From: Gemmobacter fulvus
Lineage (GTDB): Bacteria; Pseudomonadota; Alphaproteobacteria; Rhodobacterales; Rhodobacteraceae
Length of the DNA stretch: 64,000 nt
Reading direction: 5' to 3'
NCBI RefSeq assembly: GCF_018798885.1
Contig: NZ_CP076364.1
Span: 124,001-188,000, forward strand
Shown piece by piece: positions 15,365-39,141 of this stretch; within the stretch, counting starts at the first letter, position 1; every line of letters begins with the position of its first letter. The notes under the pieces are model-generated. The model made no database searches. It saw only the letters and a list, made by a program, of their open reading frames with translations, and was not told the DNA's origin. The translations under genes were made by a program, and so were the position numbers.

Positions 15365-15542
15365 GACCTGCGCCCTCCGCAATCTTGCCCGCCGCCATCA
15401 GCAGCAGGTCTGCCAATGCCTCCAGGATCGCCGGTGTCGCGGGCGCGGCCGGGGGGCGGTTCGGGCTGTCGTTCAGGTCCAGGCAGAGCTGACTCGGCGT
15501 CGCTTGCTTTTGTTGCGAGAGGGGTCGGGGTCGGCAGGGCAT
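15339..15542 (-). CDS. Small protein of the nested recombinase element, copy 1
   Basis: A 67-residue protein with an excellent ribosome binding site (GAGGAGG, six bases before ATG 15542). The N-terminal half is Pro/Gln/Arg rich; the C-terminal half is a predicted amphipathic helix (ILEALADLLLMAAGKIAEG). It overlaps the start of the recombinase gene by 26 bp and the end of the DUF5372-like gene, so all three are translationally linked. Small proteins of this type often precede such recombinases and might control directionality of recombination, but that is inferred from position alone. Confidence 0.65.
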   Translation of the reverse strand: MPCRPRPLSQQKQATPSQLCLDLNDSPNRPPAAPATPAILEALADLLLMAAGKIAEGAGHDARKDHR

Positions 15543-15864: not shown

Positions 15865-16008
15865 GTTTGGACCTGAAGACAACCATCACCCCCGCCTTGG
15901 GCGCAAAGCCCAACGCGGCATGCGCCATGGCCGCCAGCCCGTCATGTCCCTTGCGGAAGTCCACAGGCTTGGTCGCAATCACGATCCGGACGGCCTGATC
16001 CGGAAAGA

Positions 16009-16419: not shown

Positions 16420-16691
16420 GGCCAGCCTCCCGCAAACTCAGTTGCAGAACGGCATGCCCCAAGTCACATCAAGCCGAAACCACGGGGCCGGCGCACCGCT
16501 TACGATCGTATCGAGCCAAAGTATGGTGTTCCGTCCACCGGTGAAGCTCTGGGGCAGCGATGCGCGGGTTGTAGAGAATTACTGCAAACATGAACGCTAT
16601 CTCAGCGCGGCCCTTAAGAGACCGGGGAATGCGCCCTCAATACCTACAGCATCGGAGCAAGAGTCGGCATCATCCGTGCCATCCTTTCTCC

Positions 16692-22378: not shown

Positions 22379-22415
22379 CATGTTACGTAAGCGGTGCGTG
22401 ATCCCCGTCAGGCTT

Positions 22416-23984
22416 TCAGCTTGACGGCTTTTGGAAGGCCCAGGGCATGAGGTCGTCGATGCGCGCTGCGGGGTGGCCGTTGGCGATGGCGGTCAGGGTT
22501 TCGCGCAAGTAGGCGTAGGGATCGATGGCGTTCAGCTTGCAGGTCTCAATAAGCGAGGCCAGGCGCGCCCAGGTTCGGCCGCCCTCGTCATGACCGGCGA
22601 ACAGCGCGTTTTTACGATTGAGGGTTAGGGGTCTGATGGTATTTTCGACCGGGTTTGTATCCATCTCGACGCGGCCATCGGACAGGAAGATCTGCAGGCC
22701 ATCCCAGTGCCGGTGGATATAGCCGAGCTTCTCGCCCAAGCGGGATTTGGCGGAGATCCGGCTGCGCTGGTGGGTCAGCCAAAGGCGGAAGTCGGCAATC
22801 AGCGGGGCCGATCGCGCTTGGCGGGCCGCTAGGCGCTCCTCGGGTGAGCGTCCCCGGACGCTGGCTTCGATCTTGTAGATCTGGGCGATGCGGCGCAGGC
22901 CTTCGGCGGCGATCTCGGAGCCGTCCTTTTGATAGATGTCATGCAGTTTGCGCCGGGAATGGGCCCAGCAGTAGGCCAGCGTCAGGGGCATGCCGCCCAC
23001 GCGCTTTGGTTCGGCCAAGGCGTCATAGCCGGTATATCCATCGACCTGAAGAATGCCCTCGAAGCCTGTCAGGATGTCCATCGCATGGCGGCCATGGCGC
23101 CCGGGCGCATAGGTGAAGACGACCGCGGGCGGATCGCCTCCACCCCAGCCGCGATCATCGCGGGTCACCGCCCAAAGGTAGCCGGTTTTGGTTTTGCCCG
23201 CCTTGGGATCGAGGACCGGTGCCCGGGTCTCGTCCATGAACAGGCGGCCGGATCGCTTGAGGTGGACCAACATCCGGTCAACGACCGGGGCCAGATGATA
23301 GGCTGCTACGCCACACCACTTTGCCAGGGTTGACCGGTCCAGATCCACGCCGCCCCGGCCATAGATCTGGCATTGGCGATAAAGCGGCAAGTGATCCGCA
23401 TATTTGGAGACGGCGACATGGGCGAGCGTGCCCTCGGTCGGCAAACCGCCTTCGATCAGCCAGTTGGGCGTGTCGGCCTGTATGATGCCTGCGTCGCAAC
23501 GACGACAGGCATAGCGGGGGCGAATGGTGACGATGACCTGGAAGCGGGCAGGAACGATGTCGAGACGTTCGGCGCGGTCTTCGCCGATCGTCACCATGTC
23601 GGTGCAGCCGCAGGGACATATCTTCTGCGCGGGTTCGATCACCTGCTCGATGCGCGGTAGGTGATCTGGCAGATGGCCAAGGTTGCGTTTGGCTGCCGGA
23701 CGCCTGGGCCTGCCATCGGCATTGCGCTCCGCCAGCGCTGCCCGCGCGGCCTCGGCTTCGGCGACCGCCGTTTCCAGATCCTCGAAAGCCAGCTGGCGCT
23801 CGTCGGGTGCCAACTGCTCGGACCGCTTGCCGTAAAGCGCATGGCGCAGCTCGGCGATCAGGTAATCCTGACGTTCGGTCTGCGCCTCCAGCCCGGTGAC
23901 CTTGGCCTGCATGGTCGCAAACGCCTCACGCACGGCGGGCGGAAGGCTGTCCATATCAAAGGGGAGATCGGCGGGCGCAGGCAT
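22416..23984 (-). CDS. tnpC: IS66-family transposase TnpC (DDE), copy 2
   Basis: Identical in translation to the 522-residue TnpC of copy 1, with intact zinc-finger cysteines and the acidic residues of the catalytic domain. Either copy could supply transposase for both elements. Confidence 0.93.
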   Translation of the reverse strand: MPAPADLPFDMDSLPPAVREAFATMQAKVTGLEAQTERQDYLIAELRHALYGKRSEQLAPDERQLAFEDLETAVAEAEAARAALAERNADGRPRRPAAKRNLGHLPDHLPRIEQVIEPAQKICPCGCTDMVTIGEDRAERLDIVPARFQVIVTIRPRYACRRCDAGIIQADTPNWLIEGGLPTEGTLAHVAVSKYADHLPLYRQCQIYGRGGVDLDRSTLAKWCGVAAYHLAPVVDRMLVHLKRSGRLFMDETRAPVLDPKAGKTKTGYLWAVTRDDRGWGGGDPPAVVFTYAPGRHGRHAMDILTGFEGILQVDGYTGYDALAEPKRVGGMPLTLAYCWAHSRRKLHDIYQKDGSEIAAEGLRRIAQIYKIEASVRGRSPEERLAARQARSAPLIADFRLWLTHQRSRISAKSRLGEKLGYIHRHWDGLQIFLSDGRVEMDTNPVENTIRPLTLNRKNALFAGHDEGGRTWARLASLIETCKLNAIDPYAYLRETLTAIANGHPAARIDDLMPWAFQKPSS

Positions 23985-24271
23985 GGCTGTTTATACCGCG
24001 TGCCCCCAGGATTGCCCATATTTACAAGGCGATCCGAGTCACTCTGTCGCGGGGGGATGCGTCGGCCTGGGCGCATGGATGCGGCGCCAGTCAAGCCCTG
24101 CAAACAGCGCCTCGAACTGCACCCGCGACAGCCGCATGACCCCGTCGCCAACCTTTGGCCAGGCAAAGCCGCCCTGTTCCAGTCGCTTGTAGATCATCAC
24201 GATCCCACTGCCGTCCCAAAACAGAACCTTGATCCTGTCGCCCGATCACGTTTCATAATGCATCTCCTCCT

Positions 24272-26365
24272 TCAGAATCCGGGTAGGGTCATGGACCTGT
24301 CTGCAATCTTATCAAGCGCTTGCCTTGGCCTGCGCGCGGCTATTTCCTGCAAGCCTATCCGAACCGCCTCGGTTTCGAGCGCGGCCAGCGGTATTTTCCA
24401 TGGGGCGGAATACAGGATCTGTGTCGCGGGGAGGATCTGCGCGCGGATCAGTTTGTGGACAGATGCCACGCAGACGCCGAGCCGCTTGGCGGCAGCATCG
24501 ACGCTCACGGTCTTCTCCTCCTCGGCCTCGGGATCATAGGGTGGGATCGCGAGCCTGTCGCGCAATTCAGCCACGCGGACGGTCGTCCATGTCTCGTCAT
24601 CCTCAGTGCGGCAGCGCATCCGGTTGAGGGTCACGGCAAGTTCCCTGTCTGGCCAGTGCCCGCCAAGTTTGCGCAAGATGTCGGCAGCAGTGCGCTTTGG
24701 CCCCGGTGGGAAGCGACCGGTTCGGCGCCGGGCCAGCCTGACCTCGGTGTGGCGCCCGCCGATCCAGTGAATGAGCAGAACGAAGGCGTTCTCCGCCTGA
24801 TCGATGTCGATCACCACTTCCTCGATCAGCAGGCGCACCAGTCGCTGCCGCGCGCGGGCATCGGTCCCGGCGGCATTCCATGCCGAGGGCAGGTCGGTGG
24901 CGAGCCGCAAGAGGACATCAGGATCGACCCCGGGCCTCGCGATGAGTTCTGCGCCCAAAGCGGCAAGTTTTTGCTCGACCGAGGCCACCCGCTCCAGGGC
25001 TGCGTTCCACCGCGCCTCCAGCGTGCGCGCAACATGCCGTTTGGCGGGATCGACATGCTCATATCGCCGCTCGGCCAGTTCCGCGGCGTATCGTGCCTCA
25101 TCAAGCTCCTTCTCGACAGCAAGCCGCACCACCTCCTGTGCCCGGGTGGCCTGCTGTCCCGCCAATAGGGCAGCCTGCACGGCGCGGCCGGAGACCGCTT
25201 CGAGCAGTTGGCCGGTCACGGCCGCATCGATGCCGCCCCCGCCCGCACCGATGCAGAGCCCAGCCCCGACATGGCTGTCATCGCCCCGACATTGGTAACG
25301 ATGGGACAGGTCGGTCCCGGTCTTGTAAAAGACCCGCATCATCCGGCCGCACCTTGCGCAACGCGCCATGCCGCTCAGCAGCGCCTGTCCGCCGCGCCCG
25401 GATTTGCGGGCCGTTCGCTTTTGCATATGCGCGTTCTCCCCCAGCAGGACGCGGTTCTCCTCATAGGCCTGCCAGTCGATGTATCCTTCGTGATTGCTCT
25501 TGATCAGCACGCCCCACTCCTCGATCGCCCGGTGATGGCCGCTGGTCTTGCGCGCCTCGCCCTCGACCACCGCCATCCGATTACCGGTCCGGCCGAAGGC
25601 ATAGGCACCAGCGTAGACCGGATTATGCAGCACCTGCATCACGCTGTGATAGGCAGGCTTGCGCCAAGCGATCTTGCGCAGGGCACCGTTGCGCAGGACC
25701 ACTGGCAGATGGACATCGGCCGCGCGCAGCCACAGGAACACCTGGCGACCGCTGCCAAGCTCGCGGAACTTGGCGAAGATCAGGTGGATGGCCTGCCGGA
25801 CCCGCTCATCAGGATCCATCTCAATCCTGTCGTCCTCGCTCCAGCAGAACCCAGGCGGCAAGGTAAAGCGGAGTTCTCCCCGCTTCGCCTTCGCATCGCG
25901 GGCCGCCAGCCCACGTTGCCGCAGAAGACTGAGTTCGTATTCCGACATGGTGCCCTTCAGCCCCAGCAGCAGTCGATCATTCATTTGACGCGGATCGTAG
26001 ACCCCCTCCGGGTCAACGACCAAGGCCCCCGTCAAGGCGCAGAGGTCAATCAGATGATGCCAGTCCCGGCCATTACGGGAAAGCCGCGAGGCTTCGATGC
26101 AATAGACCGCCCCCACCGTCCCGGCACAGACTTCCGCGACCAGACGCTGGAAGCCCGGGCGGGCAATCAGACCAGAGCCGGAGCGTCCCAGATCCTCATC
26201 GATGACCCGGACCTCGGCGAAGCCGGTGTCGCGGGCGGCTTCGGCCAGCTGGTATTGCCGCTTCTGGCTTTCGAGATTCCCGAGCACCTGAGCCATCGTC
26301 GACTGGCGAACGTAGACGAGTGCGCTGCGGGCAAGGTGCTCAGCGGTGATCTTTGCGTGCATCAT
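24272..26365 (-). CDS. Large serine recombinase with zinc-ribbon domain, copy 2
   Basis: Identical in translation to the recombinase of copy 1: catalytic serine in YVRQST, zinc ribbon cysteines, C-terminal helix-turn-helix-like segment. With two identical copies in direct orientation, recombination between their sites could delete the 11 kb in between, including hamAB. Confidence 0.92.
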   Translation of the reverse strand: MMHAKITAEHLARSALVYVRQSTMAQVLGNLESQKRQYQLAEAARDTGFAEVRVIDEDLGRSGSGLIARPGFQRLVAEVCAGTVGAVYCIEASRLSRNGRDWHHLIDLCALTGALVVDPEGVYDPRQMNDRLLLGLKGTMSEYELSLLRQRGLAARDAKAKRGELRFTLPPGFCWSEDDRIEMDPDERVRQAIHLIFAKFRELGSGRQVFLWLRAADVHLPVVLRNGALRKIAWRKPAYHSVMQVLHNPVYAGAYAFGRTGNRMAVVEGEARKTSGHHRAIEEWGVLIKSNHEGYIDWQAYEENRVLLGENAHMQKRTARKSGRGGQALLSGMARCARCGRMMRVFYKTGTDLSHRYQCRGDDSHVGAGLCIGAGGGGIDAAVTGQLLEAVSGRAVQAALLAGQQATRAQEVVRLAVEKELDEARYAAELAERRYEHVDPAKRHVARTLEARWNAALERVASVEQKLAALGAELIARPGVDPDVLLRLATDLPSAWNAAGTDARARQRLVRLLIEEVVIDIDQAENAFVLLIHWIGGRHTEVRLARRRTGRFPPGPKRTAADILRKLGGHWPDRELAVTLNRMRCRTEDDETWTTVRVAELRDRLAIPPYDPEAEEEKTVSVDAAAKRLGVCVASVHKLIRAQILPATQILYSAPWKIPLAALETEAVRIGLQEIAARRPRQALDKIADRSMTLPGF

Positions 26366-26543
26366 GACCTGCGCCCTCCGCAATCTTGCCCGCCGCCATC
26401 AGCAGCAGGTCTGCCAATGCCTCCAGGATCGCCGGTGTCGCGGGCGCGGCCGGGGGGCGGTTCGGGCTGTCGTTCAGGTCCAGGCAGAGCTGACTCGGCG
26501 TCGCTTGCTTTTGTTGCGAGAGGGGTCGGGGTCGGCAGGGCAT
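26340..26543 (-). CDS. Small protein of the nested recombinase element, copy 2
   Basis: Identical to the 67-residue protein of copy 1, with the same GAGGAGG ribosome binding site and the same overlap with the recombinase start. Confidence 0.65.
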   Translation of the reverse strand: MPCRPRPLSQQKQATPSQLCLDLNDSPNRPPAAPATPAILEALADLLLMAAGKIAEGAGHDARKDHR

Positions 26544-26865
26544 GCGTATCCTCCTCGGGAATCGATCCCCCACAGGATGACGCAAGCTGACCGTGACGCA
26601 TTAGATCGAGTGTCTGTGCAAGCGACCGCAAGGCTTCGAGAGCAACAACCGGCGGGCCGCTTTCCATGCGTGCGCAATAGGCGGCATCGCACATCCAGGG
26701 GGGCAAAGTCCGGAAGAACCCCTGCCGTTCCTCGACCAGCACAGAGTCCGATCCGTGCCTGCGTCCCCCATCGCGCGCGCGTAGAACCCGCCCGTAAAGA
26801 GGGTGCCAAGGATATTCGATCCGCAAATCACGCAGTTGGTATGTGGAATGAAAGCCGATCACCAC
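26362..26865 (-). CDS. DUF5372-like protein of the nested recombinase element, copy 2
   Basis: Identical to the protein of copy 1 (PWHPLYGRVLRAR and SDSVLVEERQGFFRTLPPW blocks). The start is equally uncertain. Confidence 0.6.
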   Translation of the reverse strand: MVIGFHSTYQLRDLRIEYPWHPLYGRVLRARDGGRRHGSDSVLVEERQGFFRTLPPWMCDAAYCARMESGPPVVALEALRSLAQTLDLMRHGQLASSCGGSIPEEDTHALPTPTPLATKASDAESALPGPERQPEPPPGRARDTGDPGGIGRPAADGGGQDCGGRRS

Positions 26866-27009
26866 GTTTGGACCTGAAGACAACCATCACCCCCGCCTTG
26901 GGCGCAAAGCCCAACGCGGCATGCGCCATGGCCGCCAGCCCGTCATGTCCCTTGCGGAAGTCCACAGGCTTGGTCGCAATCACGATCCGGACGGCCTGAT
27001 CCGGAAAGA

Positions 27010-27420
27010 TCACAGCACCTTCCTCAACGCCGCCGCCAAGGCCGCCGCGCGGTCTGGACTGCAATCCGGCATCACATGCAGAACGACCCCACAGATCTCG
27101 ACCCTGATCACGCCCGTGTCGGCCGACGCATCAGCCAATGGCTCGATCACCAGCGGCACGAAGGTCGGGGCCGTAGCGACCGGCACCACCAGTTCCCCTT
27201 TGCGCGCCTGACCACGCCATCCCGAAAGGTGCCGCGCAATCAACCCATACTTCGCCGCAACATCGCAGACCCGCGCGCCAGGCTGAAAACTCTCAGCCAC
27301 AATCCGCGCCTTGAGATCATCCGGCCATCGCCGCCGCCCGGTCGGGCCATCAAGGATCTCGATCCGGGATACTTCCTTCGACCCACGCACCTCCATCCGG
27401 TGCTCGTTTTGGTGCTCCAC
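27010..27420 (-). CDS. tnpA: IS66 accessory protein TnpA (helix-turn-helix), copy 2
   Basis: Identical in translation to the 136-residue TnpA of copy 1, intact, overlapping the start of the split tnpB. Confidence 0.9.
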   Translation of the reverse strand: MEHQNEHRMEVRGSKEVSRIEILDGPTGRRRWPDDLKARIVAESFQPGARVCDVAAKYGLIARHLSGWRGQARKGELVVPVATAPTFVPLVIEPLADASADTGVIRVEICGVVLHVMPDCSPDRAAALAAALRKVL

Positions 27421-27523
27421 GGCCAGCCTCCCGCAAACTCAGTTGCAGAACGGCATGCCCCAAGTCACATCAAGCCGAAACCACGGGGCCGGCGCACCGC
27501 TTACCATGTTACTATAGCGCCTG

Positions 27524-27543
27524 TCGGATCATCCGAAGTCAGG
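27524..27543. other. Palindromic site in front of the tyrosine recombinase
   Basis: TCGGATCATCCGAAGTCAGG. The first 13 bases form a perfect palindrome (TCGGAT-C-ATCCGA). The identical 20 bases recur at 35213-35232, again about 28 bp before a copy of the recombinase gene, although the coding sequences have diverged. It is a candidate recombination core or autoregulatory operator. Confidence 0.6.
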
Positions 27544-27570
27544 GTGGGCTTGGGGGCAGGAGGTATCGCC

Positions 27571-28203
27571 ATGTCCATCGATTTTCTGCCCGCCCTGCGG
27601 CCTGACCACCCAGCCTGGAACAAAGGGCGCATCATCGGCCAAAAGCGTCCCCTGCAGCCAAAGCATGTCTGGTCTATCCGTGTGCGCCTTGAGATGGCGG
27701 ACAACCTGCGCGATCTTGCGCTGTTCAATATGGCTATCGACAGCAAACTTCGCGGCTGCGACCTCGTCTGCCTGAAAGTCCGCGACGTCTTTGCTGCAGG
27801 GAGAGTGAAGGAGCGCACCTCGGTCACCCAGAGCAAGACGGGTAAGCCTGTTCGTTTCGAGATCACTGAAACCACAAGACAATCCCTCGAGCGTTGGATC
27901 GCTGATCCCGAGATGCTCGGGCTGGAGTATCTTTGGCCCAGTCGCTTGCACCACAGCGCGCATCTGTCGACGCGGCAGTACGCCCGCATCTTGCGTGACT
28001 GGGTGACATCGATTGGACTTGAGCCGAGCGCTTACGGGACACACTCGATGCGCCGGACGAAGGTTGCGCAGATCTACAAGAAGACCGGCAATCTGCGGGC
28101 CGTGCAGCTATTGCTCGGTCACACGAAAATGGACAGCACTGTCCGATATCTCGGCGTAGACCTAGACGACGCGCTGACGCTGTCTGAGGGGATAGACTTG
28201 TAG
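27571..28203 (+). CDS. Short tyrosine recombinase/integrase
   Basis: A 210-residue protein with the catalytic half of a tyrosine recombinase. The first Arg lies in the SKLRGCDLVCLKVRDV helix, followed by KTGKPVRFEI (the beta-hairpin Lys), HSMRRTKVAQIYKKTG (H-x-x-R), LLLGHTKMDSTVRYLGVD with the second His and the nucleophile Tyr near residue 192. It lacks a full N-terminal core-binding domain, having only a ~60-residue leader (PAWNKGRIIGQKRPLQPKHVW). ATG 27571 follows AGGAGG. It is next to two large STAND-type defence genes, so it may have served to bring them in. A second, truncated copy is at 35261. Confidence 0.85.
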   Translation: MSIDFLPALRPDHPAWNKGRIIGQKRPLQPKHVWSIRVRLEMADNLRDLALFNMAIDSKLRGCDLVCLKVRDVFAAGRVKERTSVTQSKTGKPVRFEITETTRQSLERWIADPEMLGLEYLWPSRLHHSAHLSTRQYARILRDWVTSIGLEPSAYGTHSMRRTKVAQIYKKTGNLRAVQLLLGHTKMDSTVRYLGVDLDDALTLSEGIDL

Positions 28204-28234
28204 CGATAAGCCGGTCGGCGGGTTCTCTGCCGGC

Positions 28235-28330
28235 CGGCCCTTAGCCGCCGGTCAGCGCCGAAGGATGCTGGGATGCTGCTTTGCCGCATTCTCCAAAGCG
28301 GCCCTTCGAGGAGTGACGCAGCAAAACACT
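28235..28330. repeat. Dispersed intergenic repeat, copy B
   Basis: Starts CGGCCCTTAGCCGCCGGTC exactly like copy A, with the core GCCGCATTCTCCAAAGCGGCC and end GCAGCAAAAC. It follows the tyrosine recombinase and precedes the HEPN gene. Confidence 0.6.
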
Positions 28331-28447
28331 CGGGGCATGGTAGTGATGCGCCCCATCCCGGCCGTGAGGCGGCGCGGTAGAGCTCCCTAGAAATTGCCGT
28401 TCGCTGGGGATCCAGATACCTCAAGTTGATGAAGGCAGGCGGCACCA

Positions 28448-30031
28448 CTACCAGCCAGGGTCGCGCCGCTTTCGTCTTTCCTCAAGCCCAATTAGAGGCA
28501 TCGAACCAATCAAAAGTTTAGTGCCGCCGTCGTTTTTCTTGCGCTCCTCGACGCCAATAGCAAGCGCCAGTTGAATCAGTGCTGCCCTTGCGATTTTCAT
28601 AACTCGAAGCGCTTTAGCTTCGAGCAGATCACTGTCGATCGACAGGCAAAAGCAGTTGGATGCAGGCGAATCAAGCATCAGATTCCATGCCCATCCCTCA
28701 TGAACCTGCAGATATTTATGCTCGAGGGCGTTGCGGATATCGTGCAACTCACGAGCGTCCGCCGCGGTCGTACGCTTGAGCTCGTCGTCGAACAGTTCCT
28801 TAGACAACCAGTAAAGGCCGCGCAGCGGCCAGTTAGGATATTTCTTGAAGCCATCCAGCAGACGCGGCTTGCCCTCTACCATCCAGACATTCTTGAAGTT
28901 TATGCGGTCTGCGATCTTACCAAGCTTCCAGACATGGTCAACGAGGAACGCCACCTTGTCGAGCAACGAGTAAGAGATGCGATAAGCCGTGCGGACGCGC
29001 TCAATCGCTAACGAATGTGCAGGATAGTCGAGCGTATCGAACAAACGCACTCCGCGATCAGAGAAATGAATCTTAGTGCTGTTCAAACCCTCGTAAAGCA
29101 TAAACCGTGCCGAGGCGTATTCTTGTTTCATCTGGTTGAAGAAGCCAATCACCGGCGGCGGAGTAAAGGCGCCGGACCGATCATCAAACGCCTCCATGAT
29201 TGTCGGCAGCACGAGATCGTCTATTGCCGCCACCGAGAAAGCGCCGAGATCGTTCAGTGGGTTGAGGAAGAGCCTGCGGTCCAAGCACCAACGCCGATAG
29301 GCTCGCTCGGCCTTGCTGCGCCCAAGATCCGTGCCATCAAGATCCTGTAAGGCGCGTATGCGATCCAGATCGGCCGCGGCGGCATACTCGGCCGCGGTCG
29401 CTGCAAACTGCCGTCGCAGGACGGTCTGATTCTCGCCTTCGTAAATCGCGTCTGGTGCGAGCGCCGCCGCGAAACCGTCATGAGCGTGCAGCAGCAGGAT
29501 CGCCCGTTCACGATCTTGCTCCAATAGCCCGGCGTAGTGTTTGAGGCCGAATCCGCGGTTTGCCAACGCCATCGCAAAATTTGGGAGGATCGACAGCGCC
29601 TTGTCCCAGCCCTCGATCGCGTCAACAAAGCGCCCCCTGGTGTTTAGCTGATTTGCCCGATTGGTCAGGATCTGGCAGCGGCGGACGATGTCCAGCTCGG
29701 CGAAGCCGGGGTGTGCGCTGGCGCGGGAGAGTGCCAAGATCTGTTGTTCTCTCTCGGGATGCTCCCAATCCCAAGAACCACGTTCACCTGCCGACACTTC
29801 TTTGGCGCTCCAGGCGTTTGCGCGAAAATACTCGATAAGAGCGCCTTGCCTGGGGGCCAGCTCCCGCCTCTCCAATTCGTCTAGCAGATAGAGCGCACGT
29901 TCGACACCGCGCGGGAACTTCGCATCTAGTGAAGTGTCGATTAAGATCGCGATATGATCGAGCGCGGCGTCGGTATTCAGCTTGGCGATCGAGCGCTGGC
30001 GTAGATTTTCCAGTTCCGCCGATGTCGGCAT
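28448..30031 (-). CDS. LA2681-like HEPN-domain protein
   Basis: A 527-residue soluble protein. The N-terminal ~200 residues are helical and tetratricopeptide-like (ILTNRANQLNTRGRFVDAIE then ILPNFAMALANRGFGLKHYA). The C-terminal half matches the LA2681-type HEPN domain: helices around RTAYRISYSLLDKVAFLVDH, then the catalytic R-x4-H motif RNALEH at 433-438. HEPN domains with this motif are metal-independent RNases used in defence and abortive infection. ATG 30031 has an AAGGGA site; the longer frame to 30205 would overlap the upstream gene. It is 122 bp downstream of the giant STAND gene on the same strand, suggesting one operon in which an NTPase sensor is paired with an RNase. Confidence 0.75.
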   Translation of the reverse strand: MPTSAELENLRQRSIAKLNTDAALDHIAILIDTSLDAKFPRGVERALYLLDELERRELAPRQGALIEYFRANAWSAKEVSAGERGSWDWEHPEREQQILALSRASAHPGFAELDIVRRCQILTNRANQLNTRGRFVDAIEGWDKALSILPNFAMALANRGFGLKHYAGLLEQDRERAILLLHAHDGFAAALAPDAIYEGENQTVLRRQFAATAAEYAAAADLDRIRALQDLDGTDLGRSKAERAYRRWCLDRRLFLNPLNDLGAFSVAAIDDLVLPTIMEAFDDRSGAFTPPPVIGFFNQMKQEYASARFMLYEGLNSTKIHFSDRGVRLFDTLDYPAHSLAIERVRTAYRISYSLLDKVAFLVDHVWKLGKIADRINFKNVWMVEGKPRLLDGFKKYPNWPLRGLYWLSKELFDDELKRTTAADARELHDIRNALEHKYLQVHEGWAWNLMLDSPASNCFCLSIDSDLLEAKALRVMKIARAALIQLALAIGVEERKKNDGGTKLLIGSMPLIGLEERRKRRDPGW

Positions 30032-30153
30032 ATGTTGTCCCTTGTTTAGCCTGATCGGTGTGTGAAAAGGCCTTCGAAAGCGACCGTTCACTTCATTTCT
30101 CGCAAGTCCAGCAGGCTGATTAGATCTTTCGCAATCCCGTAGGCAGGGCATTG

Positions 30154-33100
30154 TCAGCGAAGCAGGTCCGGGAGTTCGTAGAGCAGCTTCAACGCGTCCG
30201 ACCAACCGACGTCGGAGAATAGGCGTAAGACCTCGACGAGCGCGGAGCGGCGCGTGTCATCCTCGAAGATTGAGCGGTGATCGGCAATGTAGCGGGTGAT
30301 CATCCGCACGATGACCGGCGCGGCAAGGCTCTCGTGATGATAGCCCTCCCGCGCAGCCGGGCCTGTCAGCAGCGCATGGAGCGAGTCGAACACGCTTGAT
30401 GGATCACCGGGGATCAGAAACTCATAAAGTTCGACGAGATGATGGTGCGTCGAAGGTTCGTGCGACGCCGCAAGCAGTGCGAGCATCGGGCGATAATCGA
30501 CAAGGAACCGGCGCATCGTGTCGGGGGACATGAGCCCGACGGGCGCTTCGCGACTGTCGGCATGCGCGCCCGAGCCGAAATAAAGCTGATTCATGAGGTG
30601 GCCGATCACCGTCTCTGCCGCTTTGTAGGTGGCGATGGCGGCCTCGCGCTCGGCGCCCTCGACGGTCCCGCCCGTCACCGCGGTATGGCTGGCTTCTACC
30701 GCCGCCGAGCACGCCTCCAGGATGACCATCGCCGCATGTTGCGAGCGATTGGAAAACCCGACGTCGCGCTCCTCGCCATCCGCATAGCGGGCGAAGAACG
30801 CGCCACGCAGCGTCGACAGGAAAGAGGTGAGGAACTCGCGGTGCGCAGCGGGGTCACCGACCCAAGCCCTGAGCCATTCGAGCGCGATGGCCTCTTGCTG
30901 CCCGCACCAGAGCTGCGCGGTCAGGCCGCCGAGTTGTTCGGCGACGTTGTCGCGACCGGGCTTGTCGTCGCGCTCGATGACATCGCGGCGGGCACGGACG
31001 ATCTCGATGATCGCCTTGCACTTCTCGGCATCGTTCCAGGTGAAGCGCGGGATCACATAGTGAAGGAAGGCGCTGAGCACGCCGGGGTGCGGCTCGTCAC
31101 GCGCAACGCGTTCGGCCAGCGCCCACATCTTGTCGGGCGCGGTGCGGCTCAGAACCTGCAGGCTCTGCGCCGCCTGCAGGCGGACCTGCGGTACCGGGTC
31201 TGCGAGGATCGCGTCGAACATGTCGACGATCTCGCTGTGATCCTCACCGAACTGGTCAGCGAGCGAAACATAGGCGTCGGCCGCATAGACGCGGACGTCC
31301 CAATTGCTCCAGCTTAGACTGGAATCTTCGTCTTTCTCCCGGGTCTCCGGGAAGCGGCTCGCCCAAAGCCGCCGCAACACGGCGAGCAGTTCCTCGACCG
31401 GCGGCATGCCATCGACGCCGGGCACATAGGCTGCGGCACCTGCGATGCGCTGGAGCGCGTTGCTTATATTCCCCCAGACCGGCTGTTCGACCTTCGCATG
31501 CAGCGTATCAGTATGGGCGTCATAGAAAGTGATCATGGCCAACACTTCCGCCCAAAGCTCGGCGAGCTCCACACTGTCGCAGGCCAAGGGCGTGGTCCCC
31601 ACTTTCTCGTAGAGCGCCTCAGATTGCGACAGCATCTGCGCATCGATACCTTCCTCGACATCGACGCCTTCACTGGCGAGCAGGCTGCGCGCAGCCCCAC
31701 GCGACGACCCCGATCTGATCGACATCGAGTATGTTGGGGGATTGCCGGCCAGTTCCTTCGCCGCTGCCAGTTCCTCGCGCAGCGCTCGCATTGGGTCGGT
31801 TGCAATCGCGTTTACGTCGACCAGCGACAGGAAGCGGCTGAGGACGCTACGCCACCAACGCTGTTCGGCTTCACCTGTAAATAAGCCGGCCTGCAACGCC
31901 TCGGCCTCGAACGAGGCCCGCTCGGAAATTGACCGGGATGAATAGGCTGCGGCCAGAAAGCGCACTGAATAACGGACGATGTCGCCATGCGCTAGCATCG
32001 TGATGTTGCAAGCGAACGGCCACAAGACGTCAGAAGTCTCGCTGACGCGCTCGGAGCCGACGCCTAGGATCCGGGTCCACACCGCCGGACTGGCATAGTT
32101 AATAGCGGCCGCATCGACAGTTTCTGAAAAGTTGAAAGGCGAGCAGCCGCGCAGATGCGCCACTAGCTGCACGAGCACTTCGTCATCCCGGTGGCCGTCG
32201 ATATTCTCGGCATCGTCCCAGGGCTCATACCCATATTTGTATCCAAGCAGATCAAATGCTGCATGGCCGGCGACTGCAACCGGCCTGCGCCCCAGACCCA
32301 AGGGCTGTGCGCGATCGGTGTCGCCGAGTGATGCCTCGACAATCGCACGCGTGCCGAGCGGAACCGAAAGCTCAAGAAGAGCTGTGATCCGCCGGGCCAG
32401 GTGGTAGCGGCAGTGGCGATAGTCTTGTCGACGGTTGGAGGAGAGCGGCATGATCCGGCTCGCCTGCCCTCCCATCAACGAGGTGCTGTCGTCGGTGATG
32501 TCACGAGAATAGAATACGCGGTAGATTTCGATCGCAAAATCACCGTCGGCCCGCGCGATTGGCATGATTTGCTCGGCTACCCAGGTCGCCTCCTTGTCTG
32601 CATGGGCCGAGAAATGCGGGTCGCGGAGTATCCGATCGAGCAACGCACGCGACGCGGCGGGATCGGCGGCGAAGCTCTTGCCGACGAAACGGATCGCGCT
32701 GGTCGCCGTCTGCTGCATTGGTGGATCGGTAGCCCAGGCGAAGTCGAGAAGCGCACGCGCGGTGCGGTTGAACACTTCAAGTAACACAGGCTCGGCGAGA
32801 TCGCGCTTATCGAATAATGTATGGAGCAGGAAGCGTGTCGCATCGGAAAGATCGCGCGAGCCCGCCTTGATCGCGGCGTCGGCGACCATCGCCCAAGCAA
32901 GCGCTTCGTCCGATCCGATACTGCCGGCCGCATCGACTGCCAGCCCAACAAATCGGGCAAGTCGCGAAAGCATAGTTGCCAGCGCGTTATCACTCGAGCG
33001 AGCCGCGATCAGCTCGACCAGCCCCGCGATATCGGTCTGCGTCGCCACGCGCTCAATCGCGGTACGAAGCGCAACATTGGCAAGCACCGGATCGACCGCC

Positions 33101-35052
33101 GGATCGGCGTAGATGCCGGCGACTAGGCGCCAGATATGCACCTTGCCTTCGGCATCCTGGCGCCAGAGCCGCTCGATCGCGAATCGCAGCGCCGGCGCAA
33201 GCATAAGCGCGATTGAGCTGTCGCCGCCGAGTTGGGAAATCAACCGAGCGGGATCGTCCCACTCTAGAAAGAAGCGGCCCGCGACATGGTCGAACAGCAC
33301 ATGATGGGCGAAGCTGACGAGATCGCCGGACTCGGCGAGCACGCCGGTCCGAATGACCGCATCCAGCTGATCGTGCCCTACGATTACCTTGCGCACGGCG
33401 AGCCGGCGCCGCTCGACCATCTCGCTGACCGTCGCGGCCGCAGCCCGACGCGCGGGTGTGTCGACAAGCCGGCGATCCTCATAAGCGTCGATCAGGTCGG
33501 ACTGAGTGGCGACCGTGCGGATACTGTCGGGGCTTGCCCCATCGGCGAGCAGTTGCGCGGCGAGCGAGAGGTTGAAGAGATTGCGCAGCAGGTCGCGTAG
33601 TTTGTCGGGCGCAGCAGCAATCAACACGCCAAGATCTTCGGCAGCGATGCCTACAGCGTCAAGATCATCGTCCACGAGCCGTGGCACTTGGAAATGCCGG
33701 ACGTTGACCAAGCCCGTCTCCGTATAGGCCGGATCAGGTGGCGTACCAGGCATGGCATCCCGGAACCGACGACCATTGCGCAGATCGAACGTGCGGATCG
33801 AGGCGATGACGGTCCAGTCCGGCGCCGATACTCCCAGAACCTCGATCAACTGAGCGAACACGCCTTCTGCCGGACCGCCGCGCGCGGCATCCAGTGCATC
33901 GATGATGAGCAGCTTGCGTCCCGAGCCGGGCGCGGCGGCGAGCACCTCGGTCAGCGGGTGCGCCAACCCCAACTCGGACTGGAGATTGGCAGCAATGGCA
34001 ACGCCCGGGAAGCGATCAACCGAAAGGAATACTACCGTATCGCTCGCTGCGCGGCGCGCCTGCGCCAACGCAACCAGCGCGCCGGTCTTGCCAGCCCCGG
34101 GCTCACCGGTGACGATCAGCGAGCCTGTATCGGCCGCCGCGGCAAGTGGCCCGTCGCTGACCCTCGTGATCGGAATGCCACCGGCGATCGGCAGGTGCGT
34201 ATGTCCAGCTAGGCGCGCAAGCTCGGTCTCGCACGCGGTCGACAGACGCTCAAGATCGGCGGTGTAGTCGGCGGCCCCAACGTCATTGTGGCCAAGCCGA
34301 CGAAGCTCGCGCAGGAGTCCAGCGCGATGAGCGGGCGCACCATTACCAATCATACCTCGGATGATACCCTTCAACTCCCGCAAGGGCGCATCGCCAACGG
34401 CTTCGGAGCCATAGAGACGTGTGCCCAGCAGTCGTGATGCTTCGCGCCAGTTGTCATCGCCCTCGTTCATCGAGAAACGTACGATGCGGAACAGCCTAGC
34501 CATCATCACCAGTTCGTCGTCGGTCGGCGGGACAGCTGAATGCGTTGCCCATGCCGTCCGCGCATGCATCGCGAACAGATCGAGCGCGTCGCGCTCTGCC
34601 GAAGACCGCCCGGCCTTGGTGGTTGCCCAGCTACCGCCAAGATCGAACGCGCGGCAACCTTGCTCCAGCGAGTCAAGCGTGCGCGGAGCATTGGCGGCAA
34701 CCGCTAGGACGGCACGAACCTTCTTCGGATCGACCGGAACGCCCGTGGCGCGGGCATCGACCATGACACGAACGAGTTGGCTGATGGTCTTGCCTAAAGG
34801 GCTCTTGGGACTAGCAGCCAGCCCGGCACTGGTCTTGCTCTGCAGGTCGATGCGGCTGGTGTCGTCCTGCTCCAAGCGGATGTCGTCGAGCCCATCGCCG
34901 GTTTCGAGTTGGATCGAGACCGGCAAGGTGGCAATTCCGAGGCCGAAACGTCCGCCGATCGGCATCCGCGCCAGCAGATGGGCGGCAAGCCAAGTGCCGA
35001 CCTCGGCTTGGAAGTCCATTCCGGCTTCGGTTGCACGCCCCCCTGCGTGCAT
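30154..35052 (-). CDS. Giant STAND-type NTPase with N-terminal nuclease-like domain
   Basis: About 1,632 residues. Residues 10-90 resemble the PD-(D/E)xK-like nuclease found in Cap4/DUF4297-type proteins: GMDFQAEVGTWLAAHLLA, then GLDDIRLEQDD and RIDLQSKTSAG, with the acidic pair and the Q-x-K core. Residues 316-323 are the P-loop GEPGAGKT, 381-390 the Walker B LLIIDALDAA, followed by a sensor-like SIRTFDLR. The remaining ~1,150 residues are helical-repeat-like, a probable sensor (VRLQAAQSLQVLS is HEAT-like). This nuclease-STAND-repeat layout fits Avs-like antiphage sensors. ATG 35052 is tentative; 35019 and a TTG at 35082 are alternatives. Exact family not identified. Confidence 0.72.
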   Translation of the reverse strand: MHAGGRATEAGMDFQAEVGTWLAAHLLARMPIGGRFGLGIATLPVSIQLETGDGLDDIRLEQDDTSRIDLQSKTSAGLAASPKSPLGKTISQLVRVMVDARATGVPVDPKKVRAVLAVAANAPRTLDSLEQGCRAFDLGGSWATTKAGRSSAERDALDLFAMHARTAWATHSAVPPTDDELVMMARLFRIVRFSMNEGDDNWREASRLLGTRLYGSEAVGDAPLRELKGIIRGMIGNGAPAHRAGLLRELRRLGHNDVGAADYTADLERLSTACETELARLAGHTHLPIAGGIPITRVSDGPLAAAADTGSLIVTGEPGAGKTGALVALAQARRAASDTVVFLSVDRFPGVAIAANLQSELGLAHPLTEVLAAAPGSGRKLLIIDALDAARGGPAEGVFAQLIEVLGVSAPDWTVIASIRTFDLRNGRRFRDAMPGTPPDPAYTETGLVNVRHFQVPRLVDDDLDAVGIAAEDLGVLIAAAPDKLRDLLRNLFNLSLAAQLLADGASPDSIRTVATQSDLIDAYEDRRLVDTPARRAAAATVSEMVERRRLAVRKVIVGHDQLDAVIRTGVLAESGDLVSFAHHVLFDHVAGRFFLEWDDPARLISQLGGDSSIALMLAPALRFAIERLWRQDAEGKVHIWRLVAGIYADPAVDPVLANVALRTAIERVATQTDIAGLVELIAARSSDNALATMLSRLARFVGLAVDAAGSIGSDEALAWAMVADAAIKAGSRDLSDATRFLLHTLFDKRDLAEPVLLEVFNRTARALLDFAWATDPPMQQTATSAIRFVGKSFAADPAASRALLDRILRDPHFSAHADKEATWVAEQIMPIARADGDFAIEIYRVFYSRDITDDSTSLMGGQASRIMPLSSNRRQDYRHCRYHLARRITALLELSVPLGTRAIVEASLGDTDRAQPLGLGRRPVAVAGHAAFDLLGYKYGYEPWDDAENIDGHRDDEVLVQLVAHLRGCSPFNFSETVDAAAINYASPAVWTRILGVGSERVSETSDVLWPFACNITMLAHGDIVRYSVRFLAAAYSSRSISERASFEAEALQAGLFTGEAEQRWWRSVLSRFLSLVDVNAIATDPMRALREELAAAKELAGNPPTYSMSIRSGSSRGAARSLLASEGVDVEEGIDAQMLSQSEALYEKVGTTPLACDSVELAELWAEVLAMITFYDAHTDTLHAKVEQPVWGNISNALQRIAGAAAYVPGVDGMPPVEELLAVLRRLWASRFPETREKDEDSSLSWSNWDVRVYAADAYVSLADQFGEDHSEIVDMFDAILADPVPQVRLQAAQSLQVLSRTAPDKMWALAERVARDEPHPGVLSAFLHYVIPRFTWNDAEKCKAIIEIVRARRDVIERDDKPGRDNVAEQLGGLTAQLWCGQQEAIALEWLRAWVGDPAAHREFLTSFLSTLRGAFFARYADGEERDVGFSNRSQHAAMVILEACSAAVEASHTAVTGGTVEGAEREAAIATYKAAETVIGHLMNQLYFGSGAHADSREAPVGLMSPDTMRRFLVDYRPMLALLAASHEPSTHHHLVELYEFLIPGDPSSVFDSLHALLTGPAAREGYHHESLAAPVIVRMITRYIADHRSIFEDDTRRSALVEVLRLFSDVGWSDALKLLYELPDLLR

Positions 35053-35212
35053 TCTGGATGTCGGTGCAGTTCCGCTAGCCAATTGCCGTCCACTCTCGAG
35101 AAATAGCGTTGCTCAAAGTATTGTTGGAACAGGTAAAATCTGCAACGTAGCAATCTACAGAAAATTAGGCCGCGTAGGGCAGCTCGGACATCTTGTGAAA
35201 TCATCGAGCTTA

Positions 35213-35232
35213 TCGGATCATCCGAAGTCAGG
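35213..35232. other. Second copy of the palindromic site
   Basis: Identical over all 20 bases to 27524-27543, including the TCGGAT/ATCCGA palindrome. It lies between the divergent STAND genes, in front of the truncated recombinase copy. Confidence 0.6.
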
Positions 35233-35260
35233 GACGGGCTGGAGGACATAAGGTAACACG

Positions 35261-35461
35261 ATGCCCGCCGGCCATTTTCCTGCGATGCGGTCTGAACGTC
35301 CCGCTTGGAGCAAGGAGCAAATCATTGGCCAGAAACGCACGCTACTGCCGAAAGTCGTAGACCTGCAGTTTAAAGGCCAGTCAGAGGGGTTCCTAGCAGT
35401 CGGCCCAAAAAATCTACCGTTCGACTTGCCGAAACTGCAGCGTGTGGCTTCTCGAAAGTAA
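35261..35461 (+). pseudogene. Truncated second tyrosine recombinase
   Basis: The first ~31 codons (MPAGHFPAMRSERPAWSKEQ, IIGQKRTLLPK) are homologous to the leader of the recombinase at 27571 and follow the same palindromic site at the same distance. Homology then breaks near 35353 and the rest of the 66-codon frame is unrelated. All catalytic residues are missing. The DNA differs at many positions from the full copy, so this is an older or separate insertion rather than a fresh duplicate. Confidence 0.7.
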
Positions 35462-35625
35462 CCGCTCGCTGGCCGCAGCATAACACTAAACCCAATATCT
35501 CAAGTGCGGACCGTATGACTACCGGAGCCAGTTGCTCCAGCCCCAATGCGTTAACTCGCAGCTTAATGTTTGCCGTTTGTTCTAACCCTGATATCATGGG
35601 CAGGCGGGAACATGAAAGGACGTAT

Positions 35626-38600
35626 GTGACGGAGACCGGCGGTTCGGCCACACAGGCCGGTATATTCTATCAGAACACAGTCGCCGCACTCGCGCTGGCC
35701 GATCTTCTTGATCTCGACCAACTGAGCGCTCGCGAACGCCTTCTCGAAGTGCGCGTCGAATCCACCGAGCATGTCGATGACATCGTGCTGTGCTTCGCCG
35801 ACGGCCATCGAGATTTTCAGTCGGTCAAGCTCAGCCTGCGCGTTCAGAATGGCGCTTGGACCGCACTGTGGCAGAGCCTCCATGCCCAGCTTCAGTCCGG
35901 CTTTGGGCCCGTCGACCAGCTGACCATCGTGGTCGCCGAGCGCAATGCCGCAAGTGATGCAGTAGCTCAGCTATGCGAGCGCGCCGCAACGGCCGTCGAT
36001 CAGGCCGGATTCGTTGGACGTCTGGCCGACGCGCAAAGTCGTGCATTGGCCAGCATTGAGAAGATCACGGGCGGGGCGCAGTCCGCTTTCGAACTGCTGC
36101 GCCGGATGCGCTTGCTCCACTTCGCCCAAGACTCCATCGAGAGCGAGCTCGGGCGCCGGCGGCTGACGGGCGCATCGCCATCGCTCCCCTCGTTGCTGCC
36201 GATCTTGCGCGATATCGTCGGCGGTGCTGCCCGCCGGCGCGGCCTCTTCCGCCCCGCATCGCTTCGTCGTCGCCTGAAACTCGAACACGACCTGCTCCTC
36301 GGCGAGCCGCCGGAATGGGGCCTAGCCGCCTTTCGGACGGCCACCAGGCAGATAGCGCGGCTCACGATACCGGGAACCTCAGTTTCGGGGACTGCCGAGG
36401 ATATGTTCGTCTGGCCTCGCGCCCGCACCTTAGACACCTCAAAACGAACCGACTTCGAGAGCGAGAATCCGGAACAGTCCGGAACCAGCGAAGAGGTCGG
36501 GATCGATCTCCGAACCTTCCCGACCGATCAGTTCGACCGCGTCGTCGTCGTAGCTGGACCCGGCCATGGCAAGTCGGCACTTCTGACGACGATTGCGGGT
36601 CGGCTCGCCGCCGGTCCGCTTGTGCCCGTCGCCGTTCCGCTGGCGTCGCTGGCGGCCGCTGCTACCGGCGTCATCCAGTTCCTGCGCACCACCATGAGCA
36701 CCGAACTGGAAATCAGTGCCGACTGGGAGCGACTCGCCGAACAGGGCCTGCTGGTCCTGCTCCTCGACGGTCTCGACGAAGTGCCCGCGACGAGCCGACC
36801 ACAGCTGATGCGGCGGATTACGAACTTCTCGGCGCGTTATCCGCAATCGCCCTGGATTCTAACCGTTCGCGACGCGGCCGTGCTCGGCGACCTGCCGCAA
36901 TCGGCGATCGTCGAGCTGCTTCCGCTCAGCGACGGCGACATCGAACGCTTTGCCGCGACGATGCGTGACCGGCTCGGCAGTTTGCAGCCGTGGCAGGTGG
37001 TACGTAGGCTGAAGCTTTACCCCGACCTCGATCGACTGGCTCGCATTCCGCTGTTTCTGATGATGCTGCTTGCGACCACGGACATCAATGATCCTAGGCC
37101 GTTGACTCGCTCTGACTTGATCGAGAGCTATCTGGCGATCTTATTTTCGCCGGGGCGCTCAAAGGCGACCGGCGCGTCCGACGACCGCAGCGTCATCCTT
37201 CGAGCGATCGCCGAAACTCTCGCATTCGAGCGGCTCGAGAAGCAGGAGATTGGCGCGACCGAGCGCGAGGTGCGCGCGGTAATCAACCGCTTTGTGTCAG
37301 ACGTCGCCGAAGCCGACGTGCTATTCGAGCAGCTGCGTACCAACGGTATCCTCCGCCCGCAAAGTGCCATTCGCCTGCAATTCCCTTATCCGATCGTGCA
37401 GGAATATCTGGCGGCACGGCATCTCATCGACAAATATCTCGACAGCCTCCACCAGCGGATCGAGGATGCCGTCCAGCGGCCTTGGGCGCAGGTGATCCAG
37501 TTCGCACTCGAACTTGCGCCAGATCCCGAGCCGGTGATCGAAGCCATACTTCTACGTGACGACGATGCCTTTGCCACGGGCCTGCGTCTAGTTGGCCGGT
37601 GCATCGCCAACGGCGCAATCGTGAGCGAGACGCTCCGCCTCGACGTCGCCGAGCGTCTTGCTGCATTCTGGGTCCAAGCTCCATCGGACGCCCGCGAACG
37701 CGTGGGCCGAGTTCTTGCCGATGGCTTCTGGCACGTCGCGTCGCCAAAGCTGGAAGCAGCACTTCACCACCGCTGGCTGCTTGACCAAGGTGCCGGGGAT
37801 ATCCTGAGCAAGCGTAGTGATCGGAAGCTGACGCTCAGCGTATTGCAAGGGCTCATCGCAAAAGCTCGCAACAGCACGGGTATTCACCACAGCTTCAAAT
37901 ACGCATTGCGGGCAGCGGGTGACGACGCGCTTCAGGCAATCATCAATGCGATGAATCCCGACACTGCGGATGCCGACGTCGTCAGCGATATCTCAGGACT
38001 GTTCTGGAACTTCGATACTGCCTCTATATCGCCTGCGCTCGCGCTGAAAGTGGCACGCGATGAGCGTTTGCCGTGGCAAGCGCGATTTCGCGCTTATCTT
38101 CTGGCCGGTGCACCTCTTGAGAACGCCGGCGTAGAATTGGCGATCAAGGGGATCGAGCAGGCGGACTGGGACCGCAATTACGCGGCACGCGATCTCATTG
38201 GCGTTCATGCCGACCCGTCGGCATTTTTCGAACAGCTGCTCCGCTCGCCCACCATTCCGCTCGACCGTCGGGTCGAGCTTGCCGCCAGCATCGGGCACCA
38301 CATCGAAGATCATAGTGAACGTAGAAGGCTTGCACGAATCTTGGTCAAGGATAACTCAATAGACCTTGAGGTTCGTATCGCGCTGCGGTTGATGGAAGCG
38401 CGGTACAGCGATGCCGAACAGTTCCGCTCCTTGGTTGATGACATTCCATCATTACCTGCGCAACACGTTGCTACAACAATCGCGCTGTTCGGCCACTATC
38501 CCGACCCAGCTCTAGCTGAACATGCCGCGGTACTGACGCGCGCGCGCGCTCAAAGCAACGCGGATATCGTAAGGATCGCAAATTCCGTGACGACCGGGAT

Positions 38601-39141
38601 GCGCAGCATCTTCGAAATGGACTGGGGCTTTGGTGGTCTTATTCGGGCCGCGCCGCCGCACCCTGGCATTTTGCCGTGGATCGAATTGCTCGAAGATTGG
38701 TGTGATAGGGCGGATCTTACCCCTGCGGAAAGGATGCAAGTCCGTACCGCTGCGGTCGGCCTTGGCTCTGAACCGATGGCCGCAGCGCTCGAACGTGACC
38801 TACTTGTGATCGATGATTTTGACGCCGAAGTCTGGACCACGGATGATGAATATGGGCACACAATCAGCCATGTGCTTCACCAACTTAAGCGGCGTCTTCG
38901 CGAACTGCCCGACGATTTGGTCGAACGGCTGCTTCGCTCTAAGCGCTACAACATAGCCAGGTACGCCGTCCAGGCGCTTGGCGATCGGGGTGACAATCAA
39001 GCGCTCCGGAGGCTTATCGAAGCGCACCGCGTCATTCCCGAATGGAGCTTGCGTGATGTGGCCGCCAACCAGATCGAACAGTTGGCGGCCCGCCTCCAGA
39101 TCGTTGTGCGAAAAGACGGATCTAGCTATCGGATCGACTGA
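35626..39141 (+). CDS. Nuclease-NACHT STAND defence protein (Cap4/DUF4297-like N-terminus)
   Basis: An 1,171-residue protein from GTG 35626, which follows AAAGGA by 5 bases; ATG 35596 is an alternative. Residues 1-110 are a DUF4297/Cap4-like nuclease domain: GGSATQAGIFYQNTVAALAL, Glu45 and Asp51/52 in ESTEHVDDIVL, and QSVK at 65-68. The NACHT NTPase has the P-loop GPGHGKS at 311-317, Walker B LLLDGLDE at 378-385 with the small residue/acidic pattern typical of NACHT, and a TVRDAAV sensor. The C-terminal ~600 residues are alpha-helical repeats, the likely phage-recognition part. On ligand binding such proteins oligomerise and activate their nuclease. Transcribed away from the giant STAND gene. 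Confidence 0.82.
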   Translation: MTETGGSATQAGIFYQNTVAALALADLLDLDQLSARERLLEVRVESTEHVDDIVLCFADGHRDFQSVKLSLRVQNGAWTALWQSLHAQLQSGFGPVDQLTIVVAERNAASDAVAQLCERAATAVDQAGFVGRLADAQSRALASIEKITGGAQSAFELLRRMRLLHFAQDSIESELGRRRLTGASPSLPSLLPILRDIVGGAARRRGLFRPASLRRRLKLEHDLLLGEPPEWGLAAFRTATRQIARLTIPGTSVSGTAEDMFVWPRARTLDTSKRTDFESENPEQSGTSEEVGIDLRTFPTDQFDRVVVVAGPGHGKSALLTTIAGRLAAGPLVPVAVPLASLAAAATGVIQFLRTTMSTELEISADWERLAEQGLLVLLLDGLDEVPATSRPQLMRRITNFSARYPQSPWILTVRDAAVLGDLPQSAIVELLPLSDGDIERFAATMRDRLGSLQPWQVVRRLKLYPDLDRLARIPLFLMMLLATTDINDPRPLTRSDLIESYLAILFSPGRSKATGASDDRSVILRAIAETLAFERLEKQEIGATEREVRAVINRFVSDVAEADVLFEQLRTNGILRPQSAIRLQFPYPIVQEYLAARHLIDKYLDSLHQRIEDAVQRPWAQVIQFALELAPDPEPVIEAILLRDDDAFATGLRLVGRCIANGAIVSETLRLDVAERLAAFWVQAPSDARERVGRVLADGFWHVASPKLEAALHHRWLLDQGAGDILSKRSDRKLTLSVLQGLIAKARNSTGIHHSFKYALRAAGDDALQAIINAMNPDTADADVVSDISGLFWNFDTASISPALALKVARDERLPWQARFRAYLLAGAPLENAGVELAIKGIEQADWDRNYAARDLIGVHADPSAFFEQLLRSPTIPLDRRVELAASIGHHIEDHSERRRLARILVKDNSIDLEVRIALRLMEARYSDAEQFRSLVDDIPSLPAQHVATTIALFGHYPDPALAEHAAVLTRARAQSNADIVRIANSVTTGMRSIFEMDWGFGGLIRAAPPHPGILPWIELLEDWCDRADLTPAERMQVRTAAVGLGSEPMAAALERDLLVIDDFDAEVWTTDDEYGHTISHVLHQLKRRLRELPDDLVERLLRSKRYNIARYAVQALGDRGDNQALRRLIEAHRVIPEWSLRDVAANQIEQLAARLQIVVRKDGSSYRID

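Follow-up and report, generated by a model that had tools for sequence, protein, structure and literature searches.

The locus described here raises the question of whether a giant nuclease-STAND protein and the HEPN protein encoded directly behind it work as one two-gene defence system, or whether two defence genes merely share an island. Both lie in a 64,000-nucleotide stretch of the Gemmobacter fulvus genome, the whole of which we refer to as the window. The giant gene (30154..35052, minus strand) runs from an ATG at 35052 to a stop at 30154 and encodes the 1,632 residues originally assigned to it; the closest homologues have an ATG at the same place, and the longest frame returned by the ORF finder (1,642 aa) begins at an upstream TTG. 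The HEPN gene (28448..30031, minus strand) encodes 527 aa from an ATG at 30031 that is backed by homologues, the mechanical ORF being 585 aa from a TTG. The two genes are co-directional and the distance from the giant stop to the HEPN ATG is 122 bp (spacer 30032..30153, minus strand), again as first described. The sequence AAGGGA precedes the HEPN ATG both in the window and in the one other genome found with the pair side by side, that of Acetobacteraceae bacterium KSS12; the shared stretch reads AAGGGAC(A/G)AC(A/G)T. In a crude scan of that strand, promoter- and terminator-like consensus sites occurred at chance level across 28200-35620 and none fell in the spacer, so a single transcript carrying both genes is plausible.

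To place the giant, we compared its sequence with profile collections. The PADLOC profile PDC-M54A (PDLC04702) matches residues 2-1632 with an E-value of 0 and 1,219 bits. The protein can be divided into an N-terminal nuclease domain of the PD-(D/E)xK type (approximately residues 1-257; 34282..35052), a STAND/NACHT-like NTPase (about residues 261-591; 33280..34272) and a long C-terminal region (30154..33279), all on the minus strand. All of the motifs quoted for the nuclease, P-loop and Walker B were found in the sequence. In an alignment of 16 rows, with the window included and identity reaching down to 27%, the nuclease residues D56, D57, Q71 and K73 (in a Q71-x-K73 arrangement), the P-loop at 316-322 (G316-E-P-G-A-G-K322) and the Walker B motif at 385-388 (D385-A-L-D388) are invariant or nearly so. 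On the giant, no Pfam model of any kind exceeded its cut-off, nor did any NCBIfam model for a nuclease or NTPase; sub-threshold Pfam matches were of AAA type at about 309-388 and of HEAT type at about 1277-1303 (best E 0.0024). The original prediction had described a very long repeat region: the part is indeed long, and the repeats amount to this sub-threshold HEAT match. We presume that the region is an alpha-solenoid and would act as the sensor.

A sequence search of the PDB with the giant gave no useful match, and the fold was assigned from an AlphaFold2 model of residues 1-700, built with 16 aligned sequences (mean pLDDT 78.6, pTM 0.56; below 50 at residues 531-593). Foldseek ranked Avs3 (E 7.6e-10, TMq 0.24) and Avs4 (E 5.9e-9, TMq 0.30) at the top. 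With VIA-align, model residues 8-521 aligned to Avs4 with Z 15.9 and an rmsd of 11.5 (351 aligned), and residues 5-524 to Avs3 with Z 14.2 and an rmsd of 13.8 (403 aligned). Single domains, as compared with LmuA and NLRC4, fitted more tightly than did the whole model with Avs3 or Avs4, the high rmsd of the latter probably reflecting a different arrangement of domains. The same program gave, for the nuclease part, Z 13.8 and an rmsd of 4.8 with LmuA (9hr5; residues 1-257, 205 aligned), Z 12.8 and 4.0 with HerA-DUF (9c1m; 6-254, 191 aligned) and Z 12.5 and 4.8 with Cap4 (6wan; 1-263, 197 aligned). The NTPase (261-591) aligned to NLRC4 (4kxf) with Z 13.4 and an rmsd of 4.0 (242 aligned) and also matched NOD2 (5irl) and NLRP3 (8ri2). 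The N-terminus has both the fold and the D...QxK active-site pattern of a Cap4/LmuA-type nuclease; its description as Cap4-like is upheld by the fold, but not by any Pfam or NCBIfam model above cut-off.

The HEPN protein was identified by sequence. The Pfam family HEPN_LA2681 (PF18733) matches residues 289-495 with an E-value of 6.6e-68 and 228.5 bits, against a cut-off of 27, and a sub-threshold TPR_1 match lies at 121-152. The RNALEH motif occupies residues 433-438. Across an alignment of 10 rows, which includes the window and reaches down to 22% identity, its R433 and H438 never vary, so that the protein has both the domain above its curated cut-off and the Rx4-6H motif. From its sequence it is a putative RNase. 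A structure model had a pLDDT of 46.6, too poor for use; a PDB sequence search gave just TPR-type matches and one other weak match; and there was no match to a PADLOC family at E<=1. In the table of PMC3710099, LA2681 proteins are listed in bacteria and, through a proposed transfer, in archaea as having a conserved Rx4-6H, being fused to TPRs and lying in operons with TPR genes.

To determine how often the two genes occur together, we collected, besides the window, 29 loci with a giant (16 from GTDB, 2 from IMG/VR and 11 from plasmids; two of the 13 plasmid giant matches, H4, a near copy of H3, and H12, which covers 7% of the query, are outside this set). Only in one of the 29 (L012, Acetobacteraceae bacterium KSS12) does a HEPN gene adjoin the giant. 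There, HEPN is directly downstream, as in the window, and the proteins are 88% (HEPN) and 79% (giant) identical to ours. When 15 giant genomes were searched for PF18733 (the 16 GTDB loci minus L008, an apparent copy of L007), any LA2681 HEPN was found in just two: KSS12 and Rhizobium rhizogenes GBBC3284, where it is unlinked, on a contig other than that of the giant. The assemblies of the related giants L001 (84% identical), L010, L003 and L004 had no HEPN_LA2681 match anywhere. Starting from HEPN gave the same picture. Six genomes were identified through their HEPN only (G236, G382, G505, G758, G837 and G868; G236 and G758 are 85-88% complete, and G505 is of the window's class), and none of them had a giant at E<=1e-5. 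A further 13 HEPN loci, taken with their flanks (L051-L054, L058, L061, L062, L064-L066 and L085-L087; some are cut short by contig ends), likewise gave no giant match. In plasmid records, 13 with a giant match and 14 with a HEPN match (five of the latter opened: H14-H17 and H22) shared no accession. The original prediction named conservation of the two proteins as neighbours as a check, and homologues that usually lack the partner as the refuting outcome. The latter is largely what these loci and genomes show.

Both genes are scarce. HEPN_LA2681 occurred in 2/248 family-, 3/385 class- and 4/398 phylum-sample genomes, the window's genome being one in each, and in 0/14 control genomes. The window genome itself has a single HEPN_LA2681 match and, at E<=1e-20, a single giant match. 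With the PDC-M54A profile, 50/385 genomes of the class sample matched at E<=0.001. The window holds a full-length copy, G323 a broken C-terminal remnant (130 bits), and the other 48 gave <=47 bits, mostly to the NTPase. These weak matches mean little, because 3/14 control genomes also matched at the same threshold. In the family sample, a giant match reached E<=1e-20 in 3/248 genomes: the window's own, and C-terminal remnants in G247 and G094. In the class sample, close giants are no commoner than HEPN_LA2681. Remnants of the giant C-terminus in two genomes of the window's family lie at L080:9234-10196 (46% identical) and L081:9216-9518 (64% identical). INPHARED phages contained no giant match and one HEPN record (MT836114.1, 28% identity over 77% of the query). 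In viral_contigs, HEPN gave two loci whether a single query or an alignment was used, and the giant gave no match with the single query and two loci with the alignment.

If HEPN is not the usual neighbour of the giant, it may be asked what is. Among the 29 loci, seven have the Shedu protein SduA, five have PDC-M54B, one has HEPN and 16 have none of the three. The absence of SduA and M54B was judged with one query each (tblastn, E<=1e-3), so distant forms may be missed, and the 16 include cut or broken giants (L015 and L016) and some loci with short flanks. Among the 29 loci as a whole, little flank is available for L001 (320 nt before the giant, about 2 kb after it) and, on the downstream side, for L002 (728 nt), L006 (about 500 nt) and L015 (none). 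In Rhizobiaceae, the gene immediately upstream of the giant is SduA (L005, L006, L007, L008, L013, L055 and L072; for L005, PADLOC PDLC00384 at E 1.6e-144). L007, L008 and L013 look like copies of one locus: the giants of L007 and L013 are identical, and the frames flanking the giant are alike in all three over the first 8 kb. In L005-L007, the SduA and giant frames either abut or share 1-4 nt; in L055 and L072, taking the annotated start, some 60 nt separate them. Abutting or overlapping frames in several loci suggest a Shedu protein coupled to a STAND giant.

PDC-M54B is found at the 3' end of the giant in L069, L070, L071, L089 and L090, a 4-nt overlap being annotated in three. Four homologues (L070, L071, L089 and L090) share an invariant D100...E116-A-K118 and a cysteine cluster, and we read M54B, by these residues, as a candidate PD-(D/E)xK-type nuclease. 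Its C-terminal cysteines (C437, C450, C460, C461, C464 and C470 in L070 numbering) form a possible metal site. There was no Pfam or PDB match for M54B, the PDB search returning only thioredoxins (E 0.86 and 1.6). The distant PDC-M54A/M54B pairs of L070 (5764-12113) and L069 come from IMG/VR contigs on which phage-like tail, lysis and integrase ORFs could be recognized by eye, and because of these ORFs such pairs may be prophage-borne. Another L070 gene (2793-3908) matches PDC-M18A, and a megablast comparison of the L070 pair with E. coli genomes gave no match.

On a 24-row giant tree (omitting L015, L016, L008, L013, L075 and L076), one change suffices for SduA and one for M54B, whereas HEPN takes two; the four labels as a set take 4, where shuffled labels gave a mean of 11.0; the tree was built by a quick method with several long-branched rows, and its deep forks are unsure. 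The giant family bears different nuclease-family neighbours by clade.

We then considered how the window and KSS12 came to have the same arrangement. By blastn, the two share one block, window positions 35086-28434, which begins 34 bp ahead of the giant and ends 14 bp past HEPN; no homology was found beyond it. Within the block, the two genes have diverged to a similar degree at synonymous sites (dS 0.70 for HEPN and 0.87 for the giant), and dN is 0.062 and 0.133, respectively. The AU test rejected the window and KSS12 giants as a clade with p 1.0e-4 for the full gene, 5.8e-5 for the last 750 nt and 0.039 for the first 2400 nt, and on this ground we reject one simple origin of the pair; it should be said that the giants look mosaic by sliding identity and that recombination can distort tests of this type. 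The spacer resembles the trailer of a giant without HEPN, that of L010 (Gluconacetobacter tumulisoli), with 86/121 columns identical (71%) and the match stopping about 20 nt short of the HEPN ATG. These results fit a double gain of HEPN at the same place, repeated loss, or recombinational transfer within the giant. That the order of the pair was kept in two diverged lines lends weak support to a functional link between giant and HEPN.

The pair sits in a defence island with other genes that have to be taken into account. A Hachiman system is encoded on the minus strand by HamB (16692-19301; PADLOC PDLC00187, E 1.6e-289) and HamA (19298-20371; PADLOC PDLC00172, E 1.2e-110, and Pfam HamA), and a tyrosine integrase lies at 27076-28203. 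Identical direct repeats of 5,118 bp (11386-16503 and 22387-27504) carry an IS66 transposase and a 703-aa serine recombinase; they flank the Hachiman genes, possibly as a composite mobile unit or as an effect of assembly. On the other side of the giant is a divergent neighbour (35515-39141, plus strand) encoding a NACHT protein of 1,208 aa (Pfam NACHT, E 1.1e-8). Its N-terminus gave weak matches to PDC-M54A (residues 38-97, E 8.7e-5) and LmuA (E 1.2e-4); it is another candidate nuclease-STAND protein and fits no PADLOC family clearly. Because the PDC-M54A profile matches residues 38-97, the nuclease domains of the two proteins may be distant kin; direct comparison by blastp gave E 0.25, which is chance level. 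We rejected the NACHT protein as a part of the same unit, as it had no tblastn match (E<=1e-4) in 16 giant loci.

How, then, should the pair be read? An obligate two-gene system, in which the giant would set off its own DNase together with the HEPN RNase, would account for the co-directional genes, the 122-bp gap, the spacer free of promoter-like consensus sites and the finding of the pair in two genomes. It is nonetheless very improbable, given that 16 of the 29 other giant loci have none of the three partners and 12 carry one other than HEPN, and that close relatives, such as the giant of L001, come from assemblies without HEPN. We reject it, as most of the examined homologues of each gene lack the other. 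The original two-gene reading is supported by the parts, the defence island, the shared strand and the pair in KSS12, but the partner is usually missing. The same tallies speak for two independent single-gene defence genes lying side by side by chance, HEPN acting independently of the giant. HEPN is mostly without a giant (0/6 genomes and none of the 13 other HEPN loci) and the giant mostly without HEPN (2/15 genomes), the island also holds Hachiman and the NACHT gene, and elsewhere HEPN lies beside ResIII helicases (L052 and L054) or an Eco57I-type enzyme (L064). Since its co-occurrence with the giant is rare, HEPN could be an unrelated defence gene of the island. However, KSS12, whose giant is of a different sub-lineage, has the two genes in the same order and orientation and again closely spaced, and the homology between window and KSS12 is limited to the two genes; we consider chance adjacency unlikely, whilst taking it seriously. 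As an observation on its own, in L064 (4348-10020) an LA2681 HEPN gene comes right after an R-M-like gene of Eco57I type and shares its orientation; here, too, the neighbour is one that targets DNA.

A regulatory or back-up role, with HEPN as a toxin that fires when a phage inhibits the giant rather than as a co-effector, has a precedent in PMC12839542, which proposes that HEPN RNases act as a suicidal back-up near BREX and BREX-related DNA-targeting loci; the TPR-like part of HEPN could also sense another protein. We think it scarcely probable here. The reading that we favour, and hold to be probable, is that the giant is a self-contained Avs-like PDC-M54A sensor and that HEPN is an optional accessory. 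The STAND NTPase would hold the Cap4/LmuA-type nuclease at the N-terminus; binding of a phage component by the C-terminal region would lead to oligomerisation; and the oligomerised giant would cleave DNA. In a few genomes, the TPR-bearing HEPN RNase behind the sensor could cooperate with it and add a second, RNA-directed response, in which case the pair would cleave both DNA and RNA. In favour of this reading are the full-length PDC-M54A match, the fold matches, the conserved catalytic-type residues, the partner survey, the block shared with KSS12 and the defence neighbours; the loose agreement of the whole model with Avs3 and Avs4 and the rarity of HEPN beside the giant speak against it. From the partner and genome counts, giant plus HEPN is best regarded as a rare accessory variant, the association being uncommon and non-obligate in the loci examined.

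The giant is already a PADLOC candidate and HEPN a known family, and the most interesting part is the variety of nuclease neighbours. A broader idea, which we put forward tentatively and judge rather improbable, is that PDC-M54A giants are a modular Avs-like platform into which SduA, M54B and LA2681 HEPN are swapped as co-effectors of one trigger. If true, the window version would couple a DNA-cutting STAND receptor with an RNA-cutting HEPN partner. Should the neighbours truly act as co-effectors, this single receptor family would illustrate how STAND sensors gain and swap effectors in trans; nuclease-protease pairs are a reported case of an accessory module repeatedly acquired by unrelated immune systems (PMC12799240). 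Should they not, what remains is an ordinary defence island that includes a less-studied Avs-like gene.

The literature searched held no published functional test of the giant or the HEPN protein and nothing on PDC-M54. The nearest relative by sequence is the PADLOC candidate PDC-M54, which is implied to be a two-gene system by the model names PDC-M54A and PDC-M54B alone. The original prediction knew of no described system made of the pair; the giant is already listed as PDC-M54A, and a second gene, PDC-M54B, is implied. The giant is a full-length PDC-M54A match with the same N-terminal motifs; it is 26-29% identical to the M54B-bearing M54A proteins of L069, L070, L089 and L090, while that of L071 matched over the last 128 columns only, at 39%. 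M54B, however, was not found in the window (a single query, from L070; tblastn E<=0.01), where HEPN lies downstream instead. HEPN was ruled out as PDC-M54B, having no PADLOC match.

By fold, the best whole-model matches are Avs3 and Avs4 (PDB 8dgc and 8dgf), in which a nuclease is followed by a STAND NTPase as in the giant. Avs3 and Avs4 carry a long C-terminal part, as the giant does. The AVAST feature of an N-terminal effector fused to a STAND NTPase is present in the giant as modelled, but no Avs sequence profile matched significantly (best Avs2, E 0.015, 11.1 bits), and because of this we describe the giant as working like Avs rather than filing it as a member. The HEPN protein joins a TPR-like N-terminal part to a HEPN domain that bears RNALEH, as in the LA2681 family of PMC3710099; the LA2681 table there gives TPR fusion and a TPR operon, and adjacency to a STAND giant is absent from that listing. 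The SduA that accompanies the giant in Rhizobiaceae, which belongs to a PD-(D/E)xK DNase family, offers a parallel to the arrangement in the window: it too is a nuclease-family neighbour on the same strand, but it lies upstream of the giant, whereas HEPN lies downstream.
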